Of a stretch of DNA of 48,571 nt, positions 23,207 through 48,408 are shown in pieces. Made by a program: the position numbers and the translations under genes. This stretch comes from a virus. The stretch's first letter is position 1. Each line of letters starts with the position of its first letter. The stretch is from the IMG/VR virus record IMGVR_UViG_3300007640_000049, positions 1 through 48,571 of that record. The stretch is one strand, 5' to 3'. The notes beneath the pieces are model-generated. The model worked only from the letters and a program-made list of their open reading frames with translations. It was not told the origin of the DNA and ran no database searches.

Positions 23207-23932
23207 TTAAAGTGATAGTGTTGGTACAAGTTTCTCTGACAGTGCGTAAAGCGTTTCCGCCTCTTCCATTACATACTTCTCTGCTAAGCTCCTATCTTTA
23301 TCCCATACTTTGTAGAACGCATCTCCCCTAAACCCTTGTGTCTTAGCCTTGATACCGAATGCAGCACATAGCTCTTCGTACTTTGGCATCGACCATACAT
23401 CCCCCGGCTTGCTGTACTGGTAGCTCATCCACTTTCTAGCAAGATCAATGAATGACTTATCCCACTTGCCATACTCATTGCAGATAGGGAACGGAGTCTT
23501 CACGCCGTGGATGAGTGTTCTTGCTGTGATGTACGGGAGATCAAACTTCTCGATGTTGTACCCGAAGATCTCTCCTCCTCTACCCTTGGTGTAGCTAACT
23601 GCTTCCCACCAACTAGAAAGGATATCATTCTCATCCCCGCTCAGAATCCTGAACCCAACAATCCCATCCTGATCTCTGGTCCCAACACCGATAGCAATGA
23701 TGCGACCGTAAAGCGGATTAATAGTTCCGGAAGATCTCTTTTGGTAATAGTAGTCCTCCTCCCTCCTTTCCCTATTCTTTTCCCACTCAAGCAGCTTCGC
23801 AACCTTGGTCTCTTCTTTCCAATTAGCTGGCAGCTTAGGTGGCTTGCTCTCATCGAATCTTGTTATGCCTTTAACATCAGACATAGGCAATGGCCCAGTC
23901 TCGATATCAAATACCATCCTCGGAATACCCAT
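23207..23932 (-). CDS. DEDD-family 3'-5' exonuclease (PolB-like proofreading type)
   Basis: About 241 residues from ATG 23932 (GGAAGG about ten bases upstream; ATG 23956 lacks a ribosome site). Exo I is FDIET, exo II is GYNIEKFDLPYI, and exo III lies in KYVMEEAETLY, where the usual Tyr-x3-Asp reads Tyr-x3-Glu. This is the stand-alone PolB-like exonuclease family found in many phages, acting on DNA 3' ends in recombination or replication. It overlaps the CsrA-like gene upstream and precedes the annealing protein, so exonuclease plus annealing protein probably work together. Confidence 0.85.
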   Translation of the reverse strand: MGIPRMVFDIETGPLPMSDVKGITRFDESKPPKLPANWKEETKVAKLLEWEKNRERREEDYYYQKRSSGTINPLYGRIIAIGVGTRDQDGIVGFRILSGDENDILSSWWEAVSYTKGRGGEIFGYNIEKFDLPYITARTLIHGVKTPFPICNEYGKWDKSFIDLARKWMSYQYSKPGDVWSMPKYEELCAAFGIKAKTQGFRGDAFYKVWDKDRSLAEKYVMEEAETLYALSEKLVPTLSL

Positions 23933-24158
23933 CCCTCTTGTACCTTCCGTCGTCATGGAACTTGCGATAGTTATCTCGTCCGCTTGCTCTTCCGCTTGGT
24001 CTTGTGACTAGCTCTCCCCGAAGAATTGTGTACTGCTTGGGAGCAGAAACTCCGATGCAAGCACACTGCTGATTCCAATCCAATTCAGTGATAACAAAGC
24101 TGACATTTAGGTCAGGGATCTCAATGCTCTCACCCTCTCGCCGCCATAAATGCAACAT
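23907..24158 (-). CDS. csrA: CsrA-like RNA-binding translational regulator (first copy)
   Basis: 83 residues. It begins MLHLWRREGESIEIPDLNVS like CsrA (ML.L.R..GE...I), continues to ACIGVSAPK and QYTILRGELV, keeping the Arg that binds GGA motifs in RNA (CsrA R44 position). ATG 24158 is the second of two adjacent ATG codons and has GAAAGG at good spacing, and it gives the CsrA-type start. The last 30 residues are a basic/acidic extension absent from host CsrA. CsrA dimers bind GGA motifs in leaders and block ribosomes or change mRNA stability; in phages they may redirect host regulation (inference). Confidence 0.8.
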   Translation of the reverse strand: MLHLWRREGESIEIPDLNVSFVITELDWNQQCACIGVSAPKQYTILRGELVTRPSGRASGRDNYRKFHDDGRYKRDGYSEDGI

Positions 24159-27522: not shown

Positions 27523-27711
27523 TCATTTCTTTCTCTGTAGATCCGCCCTTAATATCCTGACGTTTTCCCCAGTGTCGAAGCCTAGCTTCACTCTAGTTGG
27601 CGATGTCTTGAGAACCTTTATCTTTATGATCTCTTTCTTGTCAGGGTCATCCTCATACTGATTGGTAATGATGATGATTTCTTCTTTTTCATTTCTGGTT
27701 AAGACTAACAT
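27523..27711 (-). CDS. csrA: CsrA-like RNA-binding regulator (second copy)
   Basis: 62 residues, ATG 27711 with GGAAGGA eight bases upstream. MLVLTRNEKEEIIII and IKIKVLKTSPTRVKLGF, ending ENVRILRADLQ, follow the CsrA beta-strand order and keep the RNA-binding Arg. The sequence is only distantly like the first CsrA-like protein at 24158. It is encoded immediately upstream of the tRNA-like RNA on the same strand. Two distinct CsrA-type proteins in one phage suggest separate targets or heterodimer formation (inference). Confidence 0.8.
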   Translation of the reverse strand: MLVLTRNEKEEIIIITNQYEDDPDKKEIIKIKVLKTSPTRVKLGFDTGENVRILRADLQRKK

Positions 27712-31576: not shown

Positions 31577-31957
31577 CTAGTTAGCGAATCGTTCACGATT
31601 GGAAATGTGTGCATTCTGTCCGAGATACTTGGCCTTGGTTCCGGGGCGGTCTGGACGATAGGACCGCTGCGCGGCAAGCGGGTTGAATTTGTAGTTGTCG
31701 TTAGCCCGCATGCGTTTCTGGGATTCTACAACCGCTGGTTCGTAGGCGGATACGATTAGGTCAAAGCAGTGTTGTGCAACGTCTTTGCGGTCGGGTCTGG
31801 ACTTGATGTAGTCCGCGATCTTTGTCAGGGCAGACTCTACCTGCCATACCGCCTTGAACGTAAGACGATTGTCTTTGAGTAACCCTGACAGGTTAGAGCG
31901 GTAGAAGCAGTCGCGTACCAGTTTGGTACGACTTTTGGTAAGCACTAAAGTGAACAT
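31577..31957 (-). CDS. Hypothetical basic protein, 126 aa
   Basis: Start at ATG 31957 with TGAGGTG eight bases upstream, just downstream of the terminator hairpin at 31997-32022 on the same strand. Basic helical protein (TKLVRDCFYRSNLSGLLKDN; C-terminal SYRPDRPGTKAKYLGQ). Likely a nucleic-acid-interacting early protein, but no family is recognised. It is the first gene after the large structured RNA. Confidence 0.5.
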   Translation of the reverse strand: MFTLVLTKSRTKLVRDCFYRSNLSGLLKDNRLTFKAVWQVESALTKIADYIKSRPDRKDVAQHCFDLIVSAYEPAVVESQKRMRANDNYKFNPLAAQRSYRPDRPGTKAKYLGQNAHISNRERFAN

Positions 31958-31983
31958 CTTGAACACCTCAAAAGAAAAGTGAA

Positions 31984-32022
31984 GAAACAAAAATAGCCCG
32001 CTAGGTGCGTACACTTAGCGGG
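31984..32022 (-). terminator. Terminator at the end of the large structured RNA
   Basis: CCCGCTAGGTG (31997-32007) and CACTTAGCGGG (32012-32022) form an 11-position stem with a four-base loop (one C-A mismatch on the minus strand); the minus-strand RNA continues CTATTTTTGTTTC. It ends the candidate RNA that starts near 32590. Confidence 0.7.
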
Positions 32023-32590
32023 TTGATTTTGGTCACTTGACCATTCTTGTTGTTGCATACTTCGATTGCTCGTTTGAGCAATCACGGCGGATGGCGTTAC
32101 CCATGGATACCATCAGACCGTTGTGTCTTGTTGCTCTACCCGTTTCGCTAGGGATCAGACGCTACTCTAAACCAATAGCCCTAGCAAAGAATCTACCCGA
32201 TTGATCTCGGCCAAACCTTGCAACCGGTCCAAGAAGGCCCGCGATCACAAGTGGGAATGGTACGCTTACAAGATAGCGTAGGTCATGGATTAAACCGGCA
32301 CTAAACGGACGCCCTACGGCTCATCCGCATCGCACCATATCCACGCAAACCCCAAAGGGTACTGATTGCATACCGCGAGCCATAGGCTCCGTACGCACAC
32401 TCCTCTCGTCCATCAGTGTTACCTTTGCCTAGTTAAACCCTGCTTGAAATGGTCCGCTTTGTGCGTTTCTTCCACTAGTCCAGACCATGGGTCTGGCATC
32501 GCTCCGATGGACACAAAGTTTTCCACAGGATTAGGTTACTGTCCGTAGGACCAGCCTAGACGCTAATAACGCCAACCTAAAAAAGTGGGG
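31985..32590 (-). ncRNA. Large structured non-coding RNA candidate, about 600 nt
   Basis: A 550-base stretch without coding potential, full of compact stems: GATTGCTC/GAGCAATC (32064-32083), GCTAGGG/CCCTAGC (32147-32185), TACGCT/AGCGTA (32261-32280), GAGCC/GGCTC (32377-32389), CCAGACC/GGTCTGG (32480-32496) and the enclosing pair TTAGGTT/AACCTAA (32531-32580). A terminator on the minus strand follows at 31997. The size and phage setting resemble the ROOL and GOLLD classes of large ornate RNAs, but family membership is not shown. The 5' end is uncertain; it may extend past 32590. Confidence 0.55.
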
Positions 32591-33226
32591 TCGGGACGAT
32601 ACGGTCATAGATCGCCATCTTGGCAGAACGGGTGCCTATGTGTAGACCGTCAGATTGATTACGGGGATACCGCGATTCGCATACTATTCTCCGTCTTGAA
32701 GAACTGGTTCGGATTGTCAGTGAGGAGTAACTCACCCCTCGATCATGGAATACAGTATCGATCATCCCGGATGAGTTCTCTACTCTATCCCCCCAATAAA
32801 AAAAGTTTTTTTCCTACCCACCCAGAAGTACTAGTGGCAGGAAGGGAGGGAAAATCTATAGGGGAACGGCGTCGAGGAGGATTCGCATAAACGTCCCTAT
32901 GGGCAAATCACTTTTCTAAGGCCCTCCTTGATAACGCCGATGGGGCTAAGTCCTTGTGCCGTAAGCACTTACGGATACTGCATACTTTTGTAGTCCCATC
33001 TCCTTATCCTCCTTACACTTACACCTTTTTCCTTTTAAACTGACTGACAGTCATAATGACCTACGGCTTACTACTCCTTTCAGTCGTAGAACGCTAGTTA
33101 AACTTCCGATGGACGGAAGTTGGTAATGGGCGGAGTGTTGCGTTTATTGCGGTTGCGTTGCAGATTAATGAAATGCCGTGTTTTACCGTGTAAAACGTCA
33201 ATTAGCGTTGCATAGAGTGTTGCGTT
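32591..33226. other. Non-coding divergent control region
   Basis: No supported gene on either strand. It contains a perfect hairpin CCGTAAG/CTTACGG with a two-base loop (32959-32974), AACTTCCG/CGGAAGTT (33101-33121), GTTTTAC/GTAAAAC (33180-33196), ACGGTC/GACCGT arms (about 32600-32650) and two short reading frames on the minus strand. One of these, 32946-32999 (17 codons), has an unusually strong AAGGAGGATAAGGAG ribosome site. The region separates the minus-strand early block from the plus-strand replication block and probably holds promoters for both and possibly an origin. Confidence 0.6.
33133..33226 (+). repeat. GTTGCGTT-type direct repeats upstream of endonuclease VII gene
   Basis: GAGTGTTGCGTT occurs exactly at 33133-33144 and 33215-33226, the latter touching the start codon; GTTGCGTTG at 33152-33160 and AGCGTTGCAT at 33204-33213 are related half-copies. 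The spacing and copy number look like operators or iterons for a phage regulator or initiator. Confidence 0.6.
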
Positions 33227-33547
33227 ATGCAGTACAAGTTGAAGTATATTTGTAGGAAGTACGGTTTAGACCAGACCGAGGCAGAGACTTTGACAGGGAT
33301 ATCCAAGTGTCAGATCTGCGAAGTGGATCTGGACTGGACCGGGGATAAGAATAAAATCCCCGGATGTATAGACCATGACCATAAAACTGGTATAGTTAGA
33401 GGAGTCCTTTGCCCAAAGTGTAACTCCGCCTTGGGCCTATTGATGGACTCAGACAGTCTGGCTTACAAAGCCTACAAGTATCTGTCAAAGAGGAAGAGAC
33501 TGAGGTCTACAAGAGAACTTTTCCTAAAGGACTACTGGAGAGACTAA
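33227..33547 (+). CDS. Recombination endonuclease VII-like (HNH) nuclease
   Basis: 106 residues. Two Cys pairs (CQIC and CPKC) surround CIDHDHKTGIVRGVLC, the HNH/endonuclease VII signature: DHDH.TG..RG.LC..CN..LG. Endonuclease VII resolves branched DNA (Holliday junctions, Y structures) and is used in phage packaging and recombination. The 106 residues are about two thirds the size of T4 gp49, so this is a minimal nuclease form. Start ATG 33227 directly abuts the second repeat and has no typical Shine-Dalgarno, suggesting regulated or leader-dependent translation. Confidence 0.85.
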   Translation: MQYKLKYICRKYGLDQTEAETLTGISKCQICEVDLDWTGDKNKIPGCIDHDHKTGIVRGVLCPKCNSALGLLMDSDSLAYKAYKYLSKRKRLRSTRELFLKDYWRD

Positions 33548-33641
33548 CGGAAGGGGTAGCCAGAAGATCGGCTCCCAGGGGTATTACCATACCTTAATAG
33601 AACTGCACTTTTTAACAGGTATAGGAACGGGAGGAAGTCCC

Positions 33642-33989
33642 ATGAAAACAAGGGTGAGAGAGACTATAAACCCCCGCTATAAGGCTCCGATCCGCCCAAC
33701 CGGGGGGACAAAGGTAATTAACCACAATTTGTCACCCGAAAGCGGGGATTTTAGATCGGAGTCTAGGGCTGACTTTTGCTGGGACAAGCTTCGATTAATT
33801 CTTCGATATCTCAATTACGGGAGTCTTTCCTGTGATGATCTCGATGACTACAATTGGGCCTGCTTGACCGCAGCGAAGATGGAGCTTTGCAGCCTGTCAT
33901 ATGTGTCTTGGGCTGAAGGGGGTCAGCATCCAACAGAGGAAGAGACGTTTTACGTCTTGAATCAGGCAGAGGGGTTGATAGGAACATAG
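33642..33989 (+). CDS. Hypothetical protein, 115 aa
   Basis: ATG 33642 with GGGAGG upstream. N-terminal 40 residues are basic/Pro-rich (INPRYKAPIRPTGG), the rest is helical with several Cys. It lies 10 bases before the polymerase-like gene, so it may act with it. No family recognised. Confidence 0.5.
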   Translation: MKTRVRETINPRYKAPIRPTGGTKVINHNLSPESGDFRSESRADFCWDKLRLILRYLNYGSLSCDDLDDYNWACLTAAKMELCSLSYVSWAEGGQHPTEEETFYVLNQAEGLIGT

Positions 33990-33998
33990 GAGAGGTAG

Positions 33999-35324
33999 AT
34001 GGACTACGCAGAAGCGCCAAAGGAAATTCTTTTACCAGTACCAATCGGATTCGGATCTCACACGGCAAGGGTTAAGACAAAGAAGCGGGACAAGATGGCG
34101 TGGCTAGCCTCTCTTGTTTTTACGCGCGAATGCGCCATTAAGGCGGAATGGATCAAGATCAGCTATCAAAGGTTGTCCAAAGTCCTTGGCACTAGGTATG
34201 CCAAGGAAATAATCCAGCGGTCGATAGACTCTAAGATCATCATTCGGAACGAATTCTTTAAAAAGGGCCTGACCAGTTTTGGCTATCGCATCCACGACTG
34301 CTTGAAGGATCGTGGGGTGACGGAATACAGGGTAGAGGATCGGGTGTTCCTCAATCGACTGCGTCAGGTTTGGCTTGAGAATGAGCAAGCTAGGCGTGGG
34401 ACTTGGCATCCAATCCACTTTGAAATGCATCAGCGTCTTCAGAGGTTCGATATTGACGAAGCAAGGGCAAACGAGGCAGCGTCTAGCTGCATCCCATCTG
34501 ATGTGGATTTTGATTCGTCCTACAACAGCCAGCTAATTGCAATCAGAAGGCTTAAGGCGAAGGATGATTGCATTCCTTTGAAGGTTGGAACGACAGGTAG
34601 GGTCTACACTCCTATCTGCAATATGAAGAAACTAGTCCGGTATCACCTCAAAGCGGATGGTGAACGGGTTACGGGCTTTGACATCAAGGCATCACAGCCC
34701 ACATTCTTTGGAATGCTTCTGAAGTTTATGTACAACCCAGAGAAAAGTTTCCTTTCTGAGCCTGATGTCCTTGAAAGGGCAAAAGACTACGGGGTTAAAA
34801 TACCATCAATCCCAATTGGATTTTGCAGCAATCATGAAGTCAGCAAGTACACAGAGCTAATAGCCAGTCACGATATCTACGATTACTTGGTGGATGAATA
34901 TCGAGACATGTTTTATTACAGCATGTCTAGAGATGACATGAAGACATCGTTGCTCAGAGATGTATTTGCCAAGAAAGGGCAGTACGACTCTGGGGTAGAG
35001 ACTGTATTTAGGAATGCCTTCCCCACGGTCTACCGCTGCATAAAGGAAATCAACAAGGGCAACTACACAAACTTGATTAGGCTATTGCAGTTTGTAGAGT
35101 CAGAGGTGGTGATCCACAGGGTATTCTCAAATCTACTAAAGATAAGCTCTAGTCCATTTGCCGTGCTTCATGATTCAATCTATGCAAAACGCAGTGACGC
35201 ATCGCTCGTCGTTGACTGTTTCAGGCAGGTAGCTTCTGATATAGGAATTGGAATAAGGATTGATCAGGAGTCGTTTAGTTCGAGAGTTAGCACTCTTGAT
35301 TCGACCTCGATATGTAGAGCGTAA
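33999..35324 (+). CDS. Compact polymerase-like replication protein with winged-helix front
   Basis: 441 residues. Residues about 52-100 (ISYQRLSKVLGTRYAKEIIQ, then GLTSFGYRI) read as a winged helix. The C-terminal half carries, in order, three motifs of the Pol I/T7-RNA-polymerase fold: motif A GFDIKASQPTFFGML (Asp228), motif B R311-x3-K315-x7-F323 matching the O-helix pattern R-x3-K-x7-Y, and motif C VLHDSIYA (His391-Asp392). There is no 3'-5' exonuclease and no extended thumb. HDS in motif C and the 83-residue A-to-B spacing are closer to T7 RNA polymerase than to Pol I. Likely a DNA/RNA polymerase, primase-polymerase or initiator; strand choice cannot be told from sequence. Endonuclease VII, nuclease and SSB genes flank it. 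Confidence 0.65.
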   Translation: MDYAEAPKEILLPVPIGFGSHTARVKTKKRDKMAWLASLVFTRECAIKAEWIKISYQRLSKVLGTRYAKEIIQRSIDSKIIIRNEFFKKGLTSFGYRIHDCLKDRGVTEYRVEDRVFLNRLRQVWLENEQARRGTWHPIHFEMHQRLQRFDIDEARANEAASSCIPSDVDFDSSYNSQLIAIRRLKAKDDCIPLKVGTTGRVYTPICNMKKLVRYHLKADGERVTGFDIKASQPTFFGMLLKFMYNPEKSFLSEPDVLERAKDYGVKIPSIPIGFCSNHEVSKYTELIASHDIYDYLVDEYRDMFYYSMSRDDMKTSLLRDVFAKKGQYDSGVETVFRNAFPTVYRCIKEINKGNYTNLIRLLQFVESEVVIHRVFSNLLKISSSPFAVLHDSIYAKRSDASLVVDCFRQVASDIGIGIRIDQESFSSRVSTLDSTSICRA

Positions 35325-35340
35325 CCACATGGAGGATGTA

Positions 35341-35829
35341 GTGGCAAAGAGAAAGAAGCCAATGTGCTTTGATCTAATTACGATCAATTTCTTGACAGGA
35401 CTTGGCATCAAGTCAGATATTGTTGAGAGGCGTGTTGCAGCCAGACTGACCAAAGATCTGTTTGGGTTTGGAGATATTTTTGGCTTTGACATGAATGGCA
35501 ATTGTTATATTGTTCAGCATACCTCCAGAAAAAACCTTGGCACTAGAATTAAAAAGATAGTTGCTAATGAGACGGCCAAGAATTGGCTTGAGGCATCAGA
35601 CAAAAATTTAATATGGGCTCTTGGCTGGTATCAATCAAATGGAGATTGGACGGCTAAGGTAGTATCGGTCAACTTAGGAGATTTTCCGGATGCAGATTCT
35701 TTTGAACCTATTCAAGACACTAAAAGTAATTCCTCCCGGCGCTCTTGTGGAGATCTGGGCAAAGATGCAGGCATTTGCCGCAACGGACTCTGTGGAAGAG
35801 AAGGCGGAAATTGCAGCAAAGATTGCTGA
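35341..35829 (+). CDS. PDDEXK-like nuclease/resolvase
   Basis: 162 residues from GTG 35341, which has GGAGG six bases upstream; the ATG 12 bases before it has no ribosome site. The core TKDLFGFGDIFGFDM, then YIVQHTSRKN, LGTRIKKI and a Trp-rich end follow the pattern of small phage restriction-like/Holliday-junction-resolvase nucleases (D......G....Q.T...n...R..Ki). Metal-dependent DNA cleavage is inferred. The C-terminal 46 residues overlap another gene in a second frame and look less constrained. Neighbouring polymerase-like gene suggests a replication/recombination role. Confidence 0.65.
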   Translation: MAKRKKPMCFDLITINFLTGLGIKSDIVERRVAARLTKDLFGFGDIFGFDMNGNCYIVQHTSRKNLGTRIKKIVANETAKNWLEASDKNLIWALGWYQSNGDWTAKVVSVNLGDFPDADSFEPIQDTKSNSSRRSCGDLGKDAGICRNGLCGREGGNCSKDC

Positions 35830-36040: not shown

Positions 36041-36087
36041 TTGTTCATTATTAGTGTTCTCGTTGTGATTGCGAGTTCAACGATTTT

Positions 36088-36127
36088 AGGGGTGGTGGCA
36101 GTCCAACCACCACCCCTATCTTATTTT
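36088..36127 (+). terminator. Rho-independent terminator before ssb
   Basis: AGGGGTGGTGG (36088-36098) pairs perfectly with CCACCACCCCT (36107-36117) around an eight-base loop, followed by ATCTTATTTT. Separates the replication genes from the SSB-packaging unit. Confidence 0.8.
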
Positions 36128-36138
36128 AAGAGGGTTTT

Positions 36139-36474
36139 ATGTCTTACAATCGAGTTGTAATTGTCGGGAACGCTGTTCGAGATCCAGAGTTGAAAACTGT
36201 TGGATCAAATGAAACAAGCCTCTGCGAGCTTGCCTTTGCCGTTAATGAAAGGCAAAAGGTTAACGGCGAGTGGGAAAAGAAGACAACTTTTCTAGATGTT
36301 ACGTTCTGGGGACGAACGGCGGAGATGGTTGGTCAGTATGTGGAAAAAGGAACACAGGTTCTTATTGAGGGTCGTCTTGACGTAGACAAGTGGGAGAAGG
36401 ATGGAAAGAAATTCTCCAAGGTCAAGGTCGTTGGCGACACTGTTCGCTTTGTAGGCGGAAGGAAAGATTCTTGA
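36139..36474 (+). CDS. ssb: Single-stranded DNA-binding protein
   Basis: 111 residues with OB-fold features: SYNRVVIVGNAVRDPELKTV at the start, KTTFLDVTFWGRTAE, and VLIEGRLDVDKWEKDGKKFS. It coats ssDNA during replication. Unlike bacterial SSB (about 170-180 residues with a DDDIPF-type tail) it ends directly after the OB fold in FVGGRKDS, so the usual protein-recruiting tail is missing. The stop overlaps the next start (TTGA). Confidence 0.9.
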   Translation: MSYNRVVIVGNAVRDPELKTVGSNETSLCELAFAVNERQKVNGEWEKKTTFLDVTFWGRTAEMVGQYVEKGTQVLIEGRLDVDKWEKDGKKFSKVKVVGDTVRFVGGRKDS

Positions 36475-41655: not shown

Positions 41656-44600
41656 ATGGCTGATAAGGGATTGCGGGTCAAGGGCAAGACGTATAAGAGC
41701 ATCTCAGAAGTTCCAGAGCAGTACAGGGCTCAGTGGGAAGCTGGCAGTCGCCAGAAAGATCCGGGGAACGTAAATCCTAATATAGGGCCAAATGCTGGTC
41801 GGACAATCGTTCCGCACGTTACGACCTTTTCTGGCATTGTCTCTACATTAGCCAAGACATATCGCAATCATGATGAAGCGATTCGGCACAATGTGCAGAA
41901 CGCTCATATGATGCGTCGTGACCCTATGATCATGGGTCCGCTACTCGCTAGGCAGAGAGCAGTAGCACTTCTTAATTGGTCGGTTGAGCCAGAGGATAAG
42001 ACCTCCGAGGTCGAAGTCCGTATTGCCAAAGAACTGACCAAGATGATCAGCATGATCCCTCGGTTTACGGAATACCGCCGCAATCTGCTTGAGGCTGTTT
42101 GGTATGGCAGATACGCCATTCAGCACAAGTGGAGCTTTGTTCGCAAGGGCGGGGCAAAGGGCAAAGGAATCATTGACTGGGTTCCGGTGCATGGTGACAA
42201 AATCATGTTCCGGTACGATGATGGGACGGGAAAATATGATCCGAACGAAATTGGTATCAAGGTTTCTCCCGCTCATGTAAAGAACGACATCTGGGCAGGC
42301 AAGCCTGAGCTTGAGTACAATACAGAGGGTAGTGCGGTGTTCCTACGAAAGTGGGAACGCTCTCGTCTAGCACTGCACAAGCATCTCATCATGGATGGTG
42401 ATTATGAAGATCCAACCACCGCAGGGATGATCCACGGTGTTGGTCTTCGCCATTTCTTGTACTGGGCGTGGTTCCAGAAGCAAGAGACTCTAGCTCAGTT
42501 GGCAGAGATTGTAGAGCGTACTGGCATGGGCTTTACGATCTACTACTACCCTGCGGGTAACGAGCAGGCTAGGGCTAAGGTAGAGGAAGTGGCAGAGGAT
42601 CAGGCTCACAAGAACCAGATCATTATGCCGTATGATGCTGCCAACCCAGGTAGCTATGGCATTGATCAGGTACAGCCAGTCACGGCAGGAATTCCCGCTC
42701 TAACCAATCTGCTGGATGAATATTGGGGTAGCTGGATCATCCGATTCATCCTCGGTCAGACTCTCAGTATGAGAGACGGTGGAGGCGGATTGGGAACTGG
42801 TACGGCAGATCTGCATAAAGAATCATTCCTGCAAATCATTGAGTATGATGCGCATGCTTTGGATGAGACCCTGACTCAGGATCTCGTTCGGATGTATGTT
42901 CTTTTCAACTATCCCAGCTATCGGCACATCAACTTCAAGTTCAAGTCGCATACAGAGAAGGCTGTTCCGCTTGAGAAGCTACAGTCGATTCAGGCTGCTT
43001 GGAGTATGGGGGCAAAGGTCAAGGCGGCAGATGTCATGGACCTTGTCGGTATGACTGTAGCGGGGGAAGAGGACGATGCTCTTTACAACCCACAGCTTGC
43101 TATCGCTTTGAAGCAGTTCCGCGAGACTATGAATCAGGATCGGGAACAGCAAGTGGCAGAAGAGCTTGCTCAACAGCAGTCCAAGGAGAAGGAGTCTGTA
43201 CAGCGTTACTCTAAGTTGTATGCAAAGAGGGCTCCTGTTCCGGTAAGGCGACCGTCTAGGAAGGCTCCAAAAGGGTTTACTGTTGGGGGAGAGGCTAGTA
43301 AGAGAAAGGACTCTTCCTTCAAGCCACCCAAGGAAATGGTTTACAAAGATCCTGAAAAGAACAGCAAGGATGGTGCGGGTCCGGGGGATCATAAGGATTC
43401 TGATTGGGATACGACTTGGAAGCAGTTGATGGGGGATCTTACGGGCTTGCGGGGAGAAATGCCGGAAGAAGCCTATGGCTCCGCAGGCATTGCCGCTGCT
43501 CAAAAATACATGCCTAGAGATCCGGGGGATAAGGAGAATCCGGATTACAAGTACAATTTGCAGTATCAGGAAGAGGGTGATGAGCCGGAGCCTGTGGCAG
43601 ATCAGACTGGCGTAGATACGAGAGCAATATTGGGGGAAGAGCCAGAGCCTATGGAGGCTACTTTAGCCCGATTGCAGCAGGAGGATGCTGATAAGGATGA
43701 TGCTGCCAGTGCAGTCCAGCCAAAGGCTGAAGGCGAGATGTTGACTGGGGCGTCCTATGGGGAAGAAGAACTGGCTCAGAGCAGGTTGGAGCAAGAGGAA
43801 AAGGAGACTGATCTTGGAAAGATTATGAAGGAGGCGGGTTTAGCCGGAGAAGAGTCTTCTGGCACTATTCAGGGTAATGTAGAAGCTCAGTTTACTCAGA
43901 AGCCAGAATCTGACTTTGACGAAAGTTCTTCTATTCGTTTGGGAATCATTCGTCATTTGACTGATTTGCATCCTGAAAAAGAGCAGCCTAAGCAATTGAT
44001 TGACAAGCTTACGACTAAAGAGCTTGACACCTTAACAACGTCTGGAGTTATTAGTCGTGCAAAGTCTGCTATTCAGGAATTGCACAAGAAAGAGGGGAGG
44101 GTGACTGATTTATCTAAGCTAAAGAATGAGTCGGATGTTGATAAAGAACTTGAGAAGTATCCTGCGGATGTTCGATCTGACGTAAAGTCAATGTTTGCTA
44201 GAATTCCTACGCCTGATGCGGAAGGTAATAGGGTTAAGCCTGAGTGGTCAAAGTACGAACTGATGTCGCCAGATCAGATCGAAGTGGCAAAGCAATTGGC
44301 TAATGCCGAAAGCGCTACAGAATTCTTCCGGTCTCAAGGAAAAGGAGATTTAGTTTCTCAAGTGCTTTCTGCTGGCACTAGAGAGAAAACCGGCGCAATC
44401 ATGGGCAGGGACTTTAGTACTCCAGAGGCAAAGAAGCTTGTTGCAGAGTTAAATAATCCTGAGTATTTGCATGCAAGCATGGTTAAGGGGATGGGGAATT
44501 ACAATCACATTACTAGTGAGCTTGATAAATTTATTAAGTCTCAAACTGGCAGGAAAGAGGTTTTGCAGGACGATAGGTGGAGGATTCTTGAAAGCAATCC

Positions 44601-47600
44601 CGATGTAACCATTTCTCACCCAAGAGTTCCGGGCGAGACTATTACCATTCCTTTTAAGGATGCAGTTTATTCATTGCAGGCAATTCGTGAGTCTGTTAAA
44701 GAAGATAGGAATGCCTTGGCCGATGCCAATCTTGATAAGTTTGACGAAGAGACTGCTGGAAAATTCAGGGACTTATGGGGCGGACTGGAAAAAGATTATT
44801 CATCTTGGTCAAAGAAGACAGGAGACCAGACAAAGGCGGGGTATACACCTTTGGTCAAGAGTCTTCCGGAGGCGGAGGTAGATGCCGATGCTCATGATAA
44901 GATGATGGACAAGTTCCATGATATTGATGCTGGTTCAGGCACTGTTAAATCTGCATTGGATCAGATCGGGGAAGCAACGCCAGAGAGCATTAAGGATATT
45001 CCGGGAGATCAGTTTGCCGCTTTGTATATGATTGCTCAAGAGCAGAATCACGAAAATGCAAGCTTGTTTGAGGAAGATCTCGCTAGAAGGAATGAAGAGT
45101 CGAAGTCTGCTGCTGCAAGGGCTCAGGAACGGGCATCAGAAAAGCAGAAAACAGAGACGGCAAAATCGCAAGAGCTTGCTGCCTCGGAAGAGATAGTTCC
45201 AGAGACAGAAGAACCTTCGACTGTAGTTGCGGGGATTGGTGAAGATCAGTTCTCTGAAATGAACTACGAAGAGAAACGCGATCATGTTGATAGCCTGCTA
45301 GAGTCGATCAGATTTTCTGGCGTTCAAAAGCCTGAAGCTGGTGTTCAGTCTTTGTCCGAATCAGAACTGGAAGAAATGCACTCAGACATCTTGAGTGAGG
45401 TGGAGAGTGACATTGCACGAATGGGCAATTCTAGGACAACAAAGAAACAGCTAGAGGACTTGGCGGATAAGTACGGAGTAGATGTTTCTGAATTCTCTAA
45501 GGAGTCTGAAATTTCATCTGCCATTACTGAGTCGATTAAGGAAGAGAAAAGAGAGGCTGTAACCTCTGAGCAAGTTATTCCAGAGGCTCCGGTTACTGAG
45601 GTAGAAGATCCGGGTACTGGGTTTATTGACCTTGGGGCTCCGCCTGAAACTGGATTGGCTATTACTGATGCGACTGACGTTCCTTCTGCTCCGAAGACCG
45701 AGTTGATTCCAGCCGGTCAGAAAGATGCTGGAACGGGGTTGACGACGGAGGTTGTGGACGAAGCTGGTGAAATGGATCAGGATGTCCTTAGAAAATCAAT
45801 GGACATGGATGCTATTCGTGAAGCCATGAGTGGGATTGAGACAAGTGATTTGGAGCAATATCTTTCTAGTGAAGAGAGAGGTCCGAGAGTAAATCAAATG
45901 CTCAAGGACATTAAGAAGATTGAAGATCCAGATACTCGGTCTCAATTGACTGCATACTTGTTTGTGGCAGGGACTCCGGGCTTTATTAAGCAGGATGTTT
46001 CTCAGAAGACGAAAGATTTTATATCCAACGGCTTGCTGGCAGATTTGGAATCAAAGATTAGTGAGTCAATGCCTCCAGAGCGAGTAGGGACTACTGCTTT
46101 TGGAAGTAGGGAAGATGTTTCTGAACCACAAGTGACTCGCGTTAAGCCAGAGCCCGAACCCGCTGGGGCGCTTCCTTCGCCTAGAGACGCAGCTTTTATG
46201 CGTGGTCAGGAGATTGAAGATCTTAAAGCAGAGTTGACACAGAGAGGAATTAAGTTCCTTCCGGGTGAATCGAGGGATGAGCTTAAGAAAAGGCTGGAGG
46301 CTGGTGTTTCATTTACAGAATTTACAGATGCACAAATTGGAAAGATGGATGCTAAGAGGCTCAGGGCGTTGCTGACTGAAGCGAATAAGCCATTTGCAAG
46401 CAATGCCAGTGTTGGCGAGCTTAGGAAAGAGCTTAAAGACCACCGAGATGATTTGATCAAGGCGGATGAAGAGGCGAAGGCTGCTGCTGCACAGGTGGAT
46501 GAAGGTGACAAAGAGACGGCAGATTACATTAAGCAGATTGAAGACGTAGCCAGAATGGCTGAAGTATCGAAGGACTCGGAAGAATATGTTCAGGGAATAG
46601 GAAATCTTATCAAGAGTGCTGAGCAGCAGAAGGTTGAAATTGCAGAGAACGTCAGGGATTACAGAACCGATCAAATGGTCAAATCGCTGGTCGATACTTG
46701 GGAAGAAAGAAATCCGGGCAAGCAGCTTTACACCAGTGAGATTGCTGAGCGGTACAAGGTTGAAGAAAACATTGCATCTCATCTAAGCGATTATCAAGAT
46801 GCCCTTGTGGGCTTAGGTAGCCTAAGCAAGCTTCATAGGCATGCGGTAAGCGTTATGTATGGAGGTGGTAATGTTAGAAATGTTCCGCTTGAAGCCTTGC
46901 GTCGTGCAAGCAACCAAGCAGAGTATGTGATTGACCATGTGGTAACCACTCGACCGGAAGAGTTAATACAACAGCTTGTTGGGATTCGGGCTGATGCTCT
47001 AGAGAGTAAAGCCAGTCAGCTTTTAGAAGAAGGGAAGGCTAAGGCTATTGCTGATTTATTTGGGGTTCCGCTGAGCGATGTCCAGATTGATCCAGTTACT
47101 GGAAGCTCTAACTTTGACAAGGCGCTTGAGGCTAACACTTTGGAGAAGTGGAGAAGAGGTAGTGGGACTGAGGAAGACCCATATCAATATTTTGATATAG
47201 ATGAAATAAACAAAGAACTGCAAGATGCCTACGAGAGTAAGGCTCGCAGAACAACTCCACCTCCGGGGGCTGACCCGCAAGCTGCACGGGCAGGCGCACC
47301 TCCAGTTGCAGGTACTGATTTTGCAGATGTCAAACTTAGTACTGAGCGGTCTAGCTTGTTGGAGAAGGCAAAGGATCGAATCCAAAGAAAGGGTCGTGAT
47401 GGATCTTTCCTTATATCTGATCAGCAGCTTGAAGACGGGGCTAAGGGATTTGGATTTGTTAGTAAAGAAGAGTTGGGCAAGTTGAACAGGAGTCAATTGG
47501 AATCGAAATTTGCTGCTGGCCTTGAAAGGAAGCTTAAGCAGGACCAGCTTGTTGAGGACCATGGCATTGATGAGTCAGATCCAAAGTTTGCAGAGTACAA

Positions 47601-48408
47601 ACTGCTTGCAAGGCAAATGGGCTTTGAAGGAAATATGGCTGATAGAGTTGCAAAGGACAGGTTTGTTCAAGAGAAAGCTGGCGATGCTATTCTCGCTAAG
47701 AACAAGGCTGAGTCTGAGGCAATCATTGCAAAGAATGTAGAGAACACTAACTACAAGGACTGGGTGTCTAAGCGTAGTGCATTGGTTACTATGTTTGGCG
47801 ATGCAATGATTGGTACTACTGGTAGAAAGATTAAAGAGTTGCCAGAGTTTAACAAAGACACTATGGCACAAATGGACTCTAACGTCTTAGCCACGGCTGA
47901 AAAGTATCTAGGATTCAATCCGAATGAGGATAGATTCCAGCGTGATACGGTAGAAGAAACGAAGAAAGCTCAGGTCGAAGGTGCATTCGAGCATCTCAAG
48001 CAGAACATTGACGACATGAAGGGAATGACCAAGCAGTACTCTGACTTCATGAATAGCCTTGGCAATGAGACGGCTACTAAGCTGGCAGGGGACTTAGGTC
48101 TTAATAAGAGTGCAATGCTTGAGTTTGGGGAAATGCCACTGCACAAGCAGGCTTTTGTCGCTTCTAAGCTTCTGAATCATGCGGCTGTCCTTGGAGGTCA
48201 TAAGCCAGACAGGACTAAGGGTACGGTTGGCGGGATGGCTGATTCGATTGATTACTTGCTGAACAACCGGAAGGCGGTAGAGAATGCAATGAGGAAGGAA
48301 TATGGTTCCAGCTTTGCGTTCGAGGACTTGAACTGGAAGCATATCACCCTGATCATCTTTACCCTTCTGGCAATGTCTACTCTGAGTGCTATTGGTAGGA
48401 GCCGATAG
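41656..48408 (+). CDS. Portal protein fused to a giant helical extension (2250 aa)
   Basis: Residues 1-about 510 are a portal of the Mu gp29/DUF935 type: VPHVTTFSGIVSTLA, MMRRDPMIMGPLLARQR, RYAIQHKWSFVRK, a helical mid-domain, and QVQPVTAGIPALTNLLDEYW. A RYSKLYAK motif (517-524) marks the end of the portal-like part. The other 1726 residues are acidic, helix-rich and low in aromatic residues, with SAP/HeH-like helix repeats (about 1260, 1518-1548, 1553-1600), long Glu/Lys/Ala segments, and a hydrophobic C-terminal helix (HITLIIFTLLAMSTLSAI, about 2228-2245). A portal forms the DNA gate; the extension could line the head or act in DNA ejection. The frame is continuous, so it is a real fusion in this sequence; processing is likely. 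Confidence 0.8.
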   Translation: MADKGLRVKGKTYKSISEVPEQYRAQWEAGSRQKDPGNVNPNIGPNAGRTIVPHVTTFSGIVSTLAKTYRNHDEAIRHNVQNAHMMRRDPMIMGPLLARQRAVALLNWSVEPEDKTSEVEVRIAKELTKMISMIPRFTEYRRNLLEAVWYGRYAIQHKWSFVRKGGAKGKGIIDWVPVHGDKIMFRYDDGTGKYDPNEIGIKVSPAHVKNDIWAGKPELEYNTEGSAVFLRKWERSRLALHKHLIMDGDYEDPTTAGMIHGVGLRHFLYWAWFQKQETLAQLAEIVERTGMGFTIYYYPAGNEQARAKVEEVAEDQAHKNQIIMPYDAANPGSYGIDQVQPVTAGIPALTNLLDEYWGSWIIRFILGQTLSMRDGGGGLGTGTADLHKESFLQIIEYDAHALDETLTQDLVRMYVLFNYPSYRHINFKFKSHTEKAVPLEKLQSIQAAWSMGAKVKAADVMDLVGMTVAGEEDDALYNPQLAIALKQFRETMNQDREQQVAEELAQQQSKEKESVQRYSKLYAKRAPVPVRRPSRKAPKGFTVGGEASKRKDSSFKPPKEMVYKDPEKNSKDGAGPGDHKDSDWDTTWKQLMGDLTGLRGEMPEEAYGSAGIAAAQKYMPRDPGDKENPDYKYNLQYQEEGDEPEPVADQTGVDTRAILGEEPEPMEATLARLQQEDADKDDAASAVQPKAEGEMLTGASYGEEELAQSRLEQEEKETDLGKIMKEAGLAGEESSGTIQGNVEAQFTQKPESDFDESSSIRLGIIRHLTDLHPEKEQPKQLIDKLTTKELDTLTTSGVISRAKSAIQELHKKEGRVTDLSKLKNESDVDKELEKYPADVRSDVKSMFARIPTPDAEGNRVKPEWSKYELMSPDQIEVAKQLANAESATEFFRSQGKGDLVSQVLSAGTREKTGAIMGRDFSTPEAKKLVAELNNPEYLHASMVKGMGNYNHITSELDKFIKSQTGRKEVLQDDRWRILESNPDVTISHPRVPGETITIPFKDAVYSLQAIRESVKEDRNALADANLDKFDEETAGKFRDLWGGLEKDYSSWSKKTGDQTKAGYTPLVKSLPEAEVDADAHDKMMDKFHDIDAGSGTVKSALDQIGEATPESIKDIPGDQFAALYMIAQEQNHENASLFEEDLARRNEESKSAAARAQERASEKQKTETAKSQELAASEEIVPETEEPSTVVAGIGEDQFSEMNYEEKRDHVDSLLESIRFSGVQKPEAGVQSLSESELEEMHSDILSEVESDIARMGNSRTTKKQLEDLADKYGVDVSEFSKESEISSAITESIKEEKREAVTSEQVIPEAPVTEVEDPGTGFIDLGAPPETGLAITDATDVPSAPKTELIPAGQKDAGTGLTTEVVDEAGEMDQDVLRKSMDMDAIREAMSGIETSDLEQYLSSEERGPRVNQMLKDIKKIEDPDTRSQLTAYLFVAGTPGFIKQDVSQKTKDFISNGLLADLESKISESMPPERVGTTAFGSREDVSEPQVTRVKPEPEPAGALPSPRDAAFMRGQEIEDLKAELTQRGIKFLPGESRDELKKRLEAGVSFTEFTDAQIGKMDAKRLRALLTEANKPFASNASVGELRKELKDHRDDLIKADEEAKAAAAQVDEGDKETADYIKQIEDVARMAEVSKDSEEYVQGIGNLIKSAEQQKVEIAENVRDYRTDQMVKSLVDTWEERNPGKQLYTSEIAERYKVEENIASHLSDYQDALVGLGSLSKLHRHAVSVMYGGGNVRNVPLEALRRASNQAEYVIDHVVTTRPEELIQQLVGIRADALESKASQLLEEGKAKAIADLFGVPLSDVQIDPVTGSSNFDKALEANTLEKWRRGSGTEEDPYQYFDIDEINKELQDAYESKARRTTPPPGADPQAARAGAPPVAGTDFADVKLSTERSSLLEKAKDRIQRKGRDGSFLISDQQLEDGAKGFGFVSKEELGKLNRSQLESKFAAGLERKLKQDQLVEDHGIDESDPKFAEYKLLARQMGFEGNMADRVAKDRFVQEKAGDAILAKNKAESEAIIAKNVENTNYKDWVSKRSALVTMFGDAMIGTTGRKIKELPEFNKDTMAQMDSNVLATAEKYLGFNPNEDRFQRDTVEETKKAQVEGAFEHLKQNIDDMKGMTKQYSDFMNSLGNETATKLAGDLGLNKSAMLEFGEMPLHKQAFVASKLLNHAAVLGGHKPDRTKGTVGGMADSIDYLLNNRKAVENAMRKEYGSSFAFEDLNWKHITLIIFTLLAMSTLSAIGRSR

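Follow-up and report, generated by a model that had tools for sequence, protein, structure and literature searches.

A 441-residue phage protein with a superfamily A polymerase fold and a winged-helix-like front end is probably a small, active relative of Pol I

The window, the whole 48,571-nucleotide stretch of viral DNA analysed here, encodes a 441-residue protein that resembles a polymerase, and the locus raises the question of what so small an enzyme would synthesize, and in which process. An earlier note on this DNA had pointed to three motifs in the open reading frame, FDIKASQ with D228, R311-x3-K315-x7-F323 and VLHDSIYA with H391-D392, and had read them as parts of a compact Pol I/T7 RNA polymerase-type protein with a winged-helix front end and no exonuclease. 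All three motifs were found at these residues, and they far exceed chance expectation. The gene and its parts are as follows.

33988..33995, + strand: Shine-Dalgarno-like AGGAGAGG ahead of the ATG (printed sequence)
33999..35324, + strand: superfamily A polymerase-like gene, 441 aa (ORF, homologues, model, fold search)
34146..34334, + strand: winged-helix-like N-terminal domain, approximately residues 50-112 (model of the relative L048; conserved G90 and Y96)
34341..34559, + strand: helical region, residues 115-187, where a reduced thumb would sit (DSSP of models)
34584..34613, + strand: G-R hairpin, residues 196-205, R201 invariant (family alignment)
34674..34700, + strand: motif A, GFDIKASQP, with D228 and with Q233 at the sugar-selecting position (alignment to T7 DNA polymerase AGIDASGLE)
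34929..34970, + strand: motif B / O-helix, RDDMKTSLLRDVFA, with R311, K315 and F323 (alignment, model)
35088..35102, + strand: conserved Q364-x2-E367-S368 in the helix preceding motif C (alignment)
35163..35183, + strand: motif C, VLHDSIY, with H391 and D392 (alignment)

Single-sequence searches with the window protein (Pfam, PHROG, PDB and a viral scan) yielded nothing usable. There was no meaningful match in Pfam, PHROG or PDB, PF00476 (DNA_pol_A) was not matched at E<=10, and a weak Pfam match to FilR1 was taken as chance. In phage genomes, tblastn gave distant matches in uncultured huge phages of 595-636 kb, the best of them covering 72% of the protein at E=1e-9. A search with an alignment of four sequences identified 78 loci in IMG/VR, and members were also detected in phage records of 735 kb and 642 kb and in three bacterial MAGs, one of them a Bacteroidaceae MAG; any of these three non-phage records may hold a prophage or contaminating phage. 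An intact member (L186, 19368-20942) was observed on a 35-kb Hymenobacter qilianensis plasmid. Because this plasmid carries a replication initiator of its own, along with ParA, a reading of the gene as a plasmid initiator was dropped. The group falls outside the sequence models of Pfam, PHROG and PDB, and PF00476 was absent among the 25 families listed for 48 non-redundant members, the set on which the conservation counts rest. The gene group is widespread and without a name, and it ranges from a plasmid and smaller phages to the largest phages known, with records of 595-735 kb.

Alignment of motifs A, B and C across the 48 members showed that the key residues are fixed rather than freely varying. 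G200, R201, T204, R214, D228, S232 and Q233 are invariant (48/48), as are Y294, K315, F323, E367, H391 and D392, while position 311 is Arg in 34 members and Lys in 14. The homologue on a phage contig, L103, keeps all of the invariant residues but F323 and T204, with Ile at position 323 in place of the Phe of the 48. The window protein itself departs from the family consensus near the active site (G197, P205, C207 and A324), as might be expected of a catalytically dead structural relative retained for DNA binding. We regard this explanation as highly improbable, since both metal-binding Asp residues, the O-helix Lys and the His-Asp pair are present in every member.

The AlphaFold2 model of the window protein had an overall pLDDT of 78.9, rising to more than 90 in most of the catalytic core from residue 200 onwards, and showed a helix at residues 311-323. 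Residues 1-53 had low pLDDT, and the winged-helix region was of low confidence in this model. It was clear in that of the relative L048 (pLDDT 91.5, pTM 0.87), where the order H1-S1-H2-H3-S2-wing-S3 is predicted at high pLDDT ahead of the polymerase part; the term winged helix is assigned from this order of elements, rather than from a structure match. Residues 115-187 of the window protein may be the counterpart of a reduced thumb. In Foldseek comparisons, all PDB matches at E<=0.001 (21/21 for the window protein, 12/12 for L048) were family A DNA polymerases, at TM-scores of 0.25-0.39, and T7 and mitochondrial RNA polymerases formed the second group for both models, with modest TM-scores of 0.25-0.42 across the PDB fold matches. 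The best matches in a viral fold library were two proteins of ~405 aa, unnamed or labelled 'putative DNA polymerase I'. A right-hand palm is predicted, and the models support a superfamily A (Pol I/T7 RNAP type) fold for the window protein; model, fold search and alignment agree with the proposal of such an enzyme with intact catalytic motifs and no exonuclease.

Among described groups, divPolA2 of Yutin et al. (2024) has an exo-less family A palm and an unusual N-terminal domain, accompanies PolB, and was proposed to be a repair DNA polymerase or an RNA polymerase (PMC11348598); huge or jumbo phages are not mentioned in the text of that paper. Its members match phrog_4756 at 1e-65 to 1e-163, and we identify the two with each other here on this sequence basis. 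The window group aligned to phrog_4756 over motifs A-C with an hhalign probability of 98.1 and E=1e-13, and the phrog_4756 profile detected the window protein at E=0.031 and the best family member at 1.3e-5. A tree split 52 rows from 12 with SH-aLRT 100 and long branches. By these comparisons the window group is clearly related to divPolA2 and appears to share its ancestry as a separate sister clade. Both consist of proteins of ~430-440 aa with a family A palm and fingers, intact motifs, a novel N-terminal domain, no exonuclease and no recognisable Pol I thumb, and both are usually additional to a PolB. They differ in motif A, which is D[IL]xxSQ(P) in the window group and mostly D[FY]xxLHP in divPolA2, and in range, since the window group, unlike divPolA2, extends to huge phages, MAGs and a plasmid. 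This large sister clade of divPolA2, with its winged-helix front end, enlarges the known repertoire of minimal superfamily A polymerases, the stock from which enzymes that synthesize DNA and RNA diverged.

The HDS form of motif C had been linked to T7 RNA polymerase, and a minimal single-subunit RNA polymerase could transcribe phage genes or supply RNA primers, its winged helix recognising a promoter or an origin. T7-like and mitochondrial single-subunit RNA polymerases have the HDS motif C and a similar G-R hairpin, which we take to be the counterpart of PolA TGRLSS and T7 RNAP RGRVY; the window protein, however, has neither their N-terminal promoter domain, for which 441 aa is too short, nor a match to their profile. 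The family profile matched PolA (probability 66, E=5e-5) with D228 and the steric-gate position in register, R311/K315 opposite the O-helix pair and H391-D392 opposite HDE, whereas the comparison with single-subunit RNA polymerases gave a probability of 0.3, no match, using a thin three-sequence profile. In T7 DNA polymerase, D228 was paired with D475 and Q233 with the Glu of the steric gate, given the numbering and gate residue that we presume for that enzyme. At this sugar-selecting position, motif A +5, all 48 members have Gln and T7 RNAP has Gly. The RNA polymerase reading, to which the HDS and D-x-x-G-R-x-[HY] motifs, the second place among fold matches and one of the two proposals for divPolA2 (PMC11348598) lend weight, is thus quite unlikely in view of the invariant Gln, the profile result and the first rank of PolA folds.

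Since profile and fold favour PolA and Q233 is not Gly, HDS is not a sign of RNA polymerase here. The match to the PolA profile and not to that of the single-subunit RNA polymerases, together with the alignment of Q233 with the steric-gate Glu, leads us to infer with moderate confidence that the enzyme would use dNTPs. Fold and motif order are those of E. coli DNA polymerase I and T7 DNA polymerase (PF00476), from which the window protein differs in having no Pfam match, no exonuclease, a reduced thumb, HDS for HDE and Gln for Glu in motif A. Overall, the sequence comparisons suggest that it is probably an active, small Pol I relative with a DNA-binding domain in front.

Co-occurring polymerases were searched for in 26 records, including the window. 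PolB was present in 18 of the 25 other carriers, and a DnaE/PolC-type polymerase together with a compact PolA in two (2/25), so the earlier description of a minimal replicative polymerase is not supported as a general role, and a sole polymerase is ruled out as a family trait. Because most carriers encode PolB, or a PolC/DnaE-type enzyme plus compact PolA, the family gene is usually accessory. Several huge-phage carriers also have Toprim primases (DNAG_N and Toprim_2 models), and replacement of the phage primase is therefore not general among huge phages. In many huge phages the family gene is in the vicinity of genes for heads or tails rather than of those for replication.

Other polymerase and neighbour genes were observed in these records. 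The compact PolA of L002 (6897-8183) and L019 (just downstream of 9098) is exo-less, ~428 aa long and perhaps related to divPolA1, and its start shares 4 nt with the family gene. In about half of the loci (L003 4152-5474 and 24 others), the gene directly upstream of the family gene encodes a protein of ~440 aa to which no Pfam model matched; the idea that this neighbour is a ligase in huge phages had no Pfam support.

The neighbourhood of the window gene is as follows.

33227..33547, + strand: endonuclease VII (PF02945, 2.3e-14; same place in L103)
33642..33989, + strand: 115-aa ORF with no assigned function, 9 nt ahead of the polymerase gene
35329..35829, + strand: ORF named PDDEXK-like in the earlier note (positional counterpart in L103)
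36087..36118, + strand: terminator-like stem-loop between the polymerase operon and SSB
36139..36474, + strand: single-strand binding protein, SSB (PF00436, 6.3e-27)

Pfam confirmed endonuclease VII and SSB as flanking genes, while the PDDEXK-like nuclease had no Pfam or PHROG hit and stays unconfirmed. The full order is endonuclease VII, 115-aa ORF, polymerase, possible nuclease, 116-aa ORF, terminator-like stem, SSB and packaging genes. L103, whose terminase is 64% identical to that of the window and whose polymerase homologue is 29% identical, has the same endonuclease VII - polymerase - SSB order, with SSB ~1.1 kb downstream of the polymerase compared to 0.8 kb in the window. Two scans for closer kin of the window clade again returned the L103 contig alone. 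With a weak two-sequence SSB profile, no SSB was detected in the sequence flanking the gene of any of the other 47 members, and no iterons or inverted repeats were found within 31900-34100 of the window.

These neighbours would suit an accessory DNA polymerase for repair or gap filling that lengthens 3' ends already present and does no priming, the ends being recombination intermediates cut by endonuclease VII and the adjoining nucleases. Nuclease and SSB genes on both sides, replicative polymerases in the same genomes and the repair role proposed for the sister group divPolA2 by Yutin et al. (PMC11348598) are consistent with this. We nevertheless find it doubtful, as the front winged helix suggests sequence- or structure-specific DNA binding and no other primase is recognisable in the window.

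Indeed, as the earlier note had stated, no other polymerase or primase could be recognised: PolA, PolB, PolC, DnaG and Toprim models matched nowhere in the window. The protein could then be the only polymerase that replicates this 48.6-kb phage. We consider this very unlikely, since the phage also has no recognisable replicative helicase or primase, so that the host replisome could copy the genome; a reduced thumb and the missing exonuclease also speak against processive, accurate synthesis. Among 14 other records with related terminases, four had a normal PolA and ten had none. Judging from how genes are ordered in relatives (L106), anything missing from the linear window record would lie in the head module, between the record's end and its start. 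A stand-alone PolB-type 3'-5' exonuclease (PF10108) is encoded at 23207-23956 of the window, without PolB, and could be a proofreader for another polymerase.

Two minimal groups provide precedents for a different use of such an enzyme. CCPol of SCCmec is exo-less and, with its SSB-like partner MP, a proven A-family DNA primase, making primers from dNTPs only with that partner (PMC7581432; PMC10061031). Like the window protein it is an A-family polymerase with a shortened thumb; it is found on a mobile element, and its partner MP may have a parallel in the SSB-type protein encoded nearby in the window clade. It differs in its steric-gate residues (E174 and F225, corresponding to Q233 and L319), in having a partial exonuclease domain where the window group has a winged helix, and in its proven activity, the window group being known from sequence and models. 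No D5/COG3378 or DUF927 helicase partner, as in CCPol, was recognised here. TV-Pol, a minimal superfamily A group with predicted primase-polymerase activity (Iyer et al. 2008; PMC2579912), is similar by its published description in size (400-600 aa), hairpin Arg, two Asp and RxxxK; TV-Pols lie on mobile elements, and the fingers Asp varies across the window group. Among the ORFs of the window's replication region there was no D5-like helicase fusion or neighbour and no integrase family.

Because of the CCPol-MP and TV-Pol precedents, we propose that the gene encodes a catalytically competent, exo-less superfamily A DNA polymerase that synthesizes short DNA pieces with SSB, perhaps as primers, at replication initiation or recombination (rough probability 45%). 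Catalytic activity, dNTP preference, priming and the SSB partnership are what we infer, and the protein may be a primase or initiator, roles also named in the earlier note. The winged-helix domain would stand in for the exonuclease and most of the thumb, holding template DNA together with SSB. D228 and D392 would bind two metals and R311/K315 the incoming nucleotide, with dNTPs favoured through Q233. The short primer or patch so made could be extended by a high-fidelity polymerase, the phage's PolB/PolC in carriers and the host's polymerase for the window phage.

Invariant catalytic residues, the predicted fold, the missing exonuclease, the winged helix in the L048 model and the gene order in two phages support short synthesis by a competent DNA polymerase. 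So do the PolA profile match, the usual company of PolB or of DnaE plus compact PolA, and a window in which no primase was recognised. Against it count the detection of a nearby SSB in the window clade alone, the terminator-like hairpin between SSB and the polymerase operon, the Toprim primases in several carriers, the head or tail gene neighbours in many huge phages, the different steric-gate residues of CCPol and the absence of an aromatic residue at 323 in L103. A bolder version, which we think unlikely, is an origin-specific primase-polymerase of a new class, whose winged helix would read the phage origin and whose superfamily A site would make the first primer with no need for DnaG, a primase of archaeal type or an RNA polymerase of T7 type. 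With its fixed motifs and small size, the protein's activity (DNA or RNA, primed or unprimed) is directly testable.

Three further observations concern other genes. An apparently phage-encoded CsrA-family regulator (PF02599) lies at 27523-27711 of the window, as read from the ORF list, and a 2250-aa ORF at 41656-48408 begins with a portal-like N-terminus and goes on into a long extension rich in Glu and Lys. About ten huge-phage loci (for example L003 5475-5660, L057 7460-7672, L061 7424-7624 and L082 7246-7446) have, immediately upstream of the polymerase gene, an ORF of 61-70 aa that presumably resembles the middle of the T4 major capsid protein gp23.
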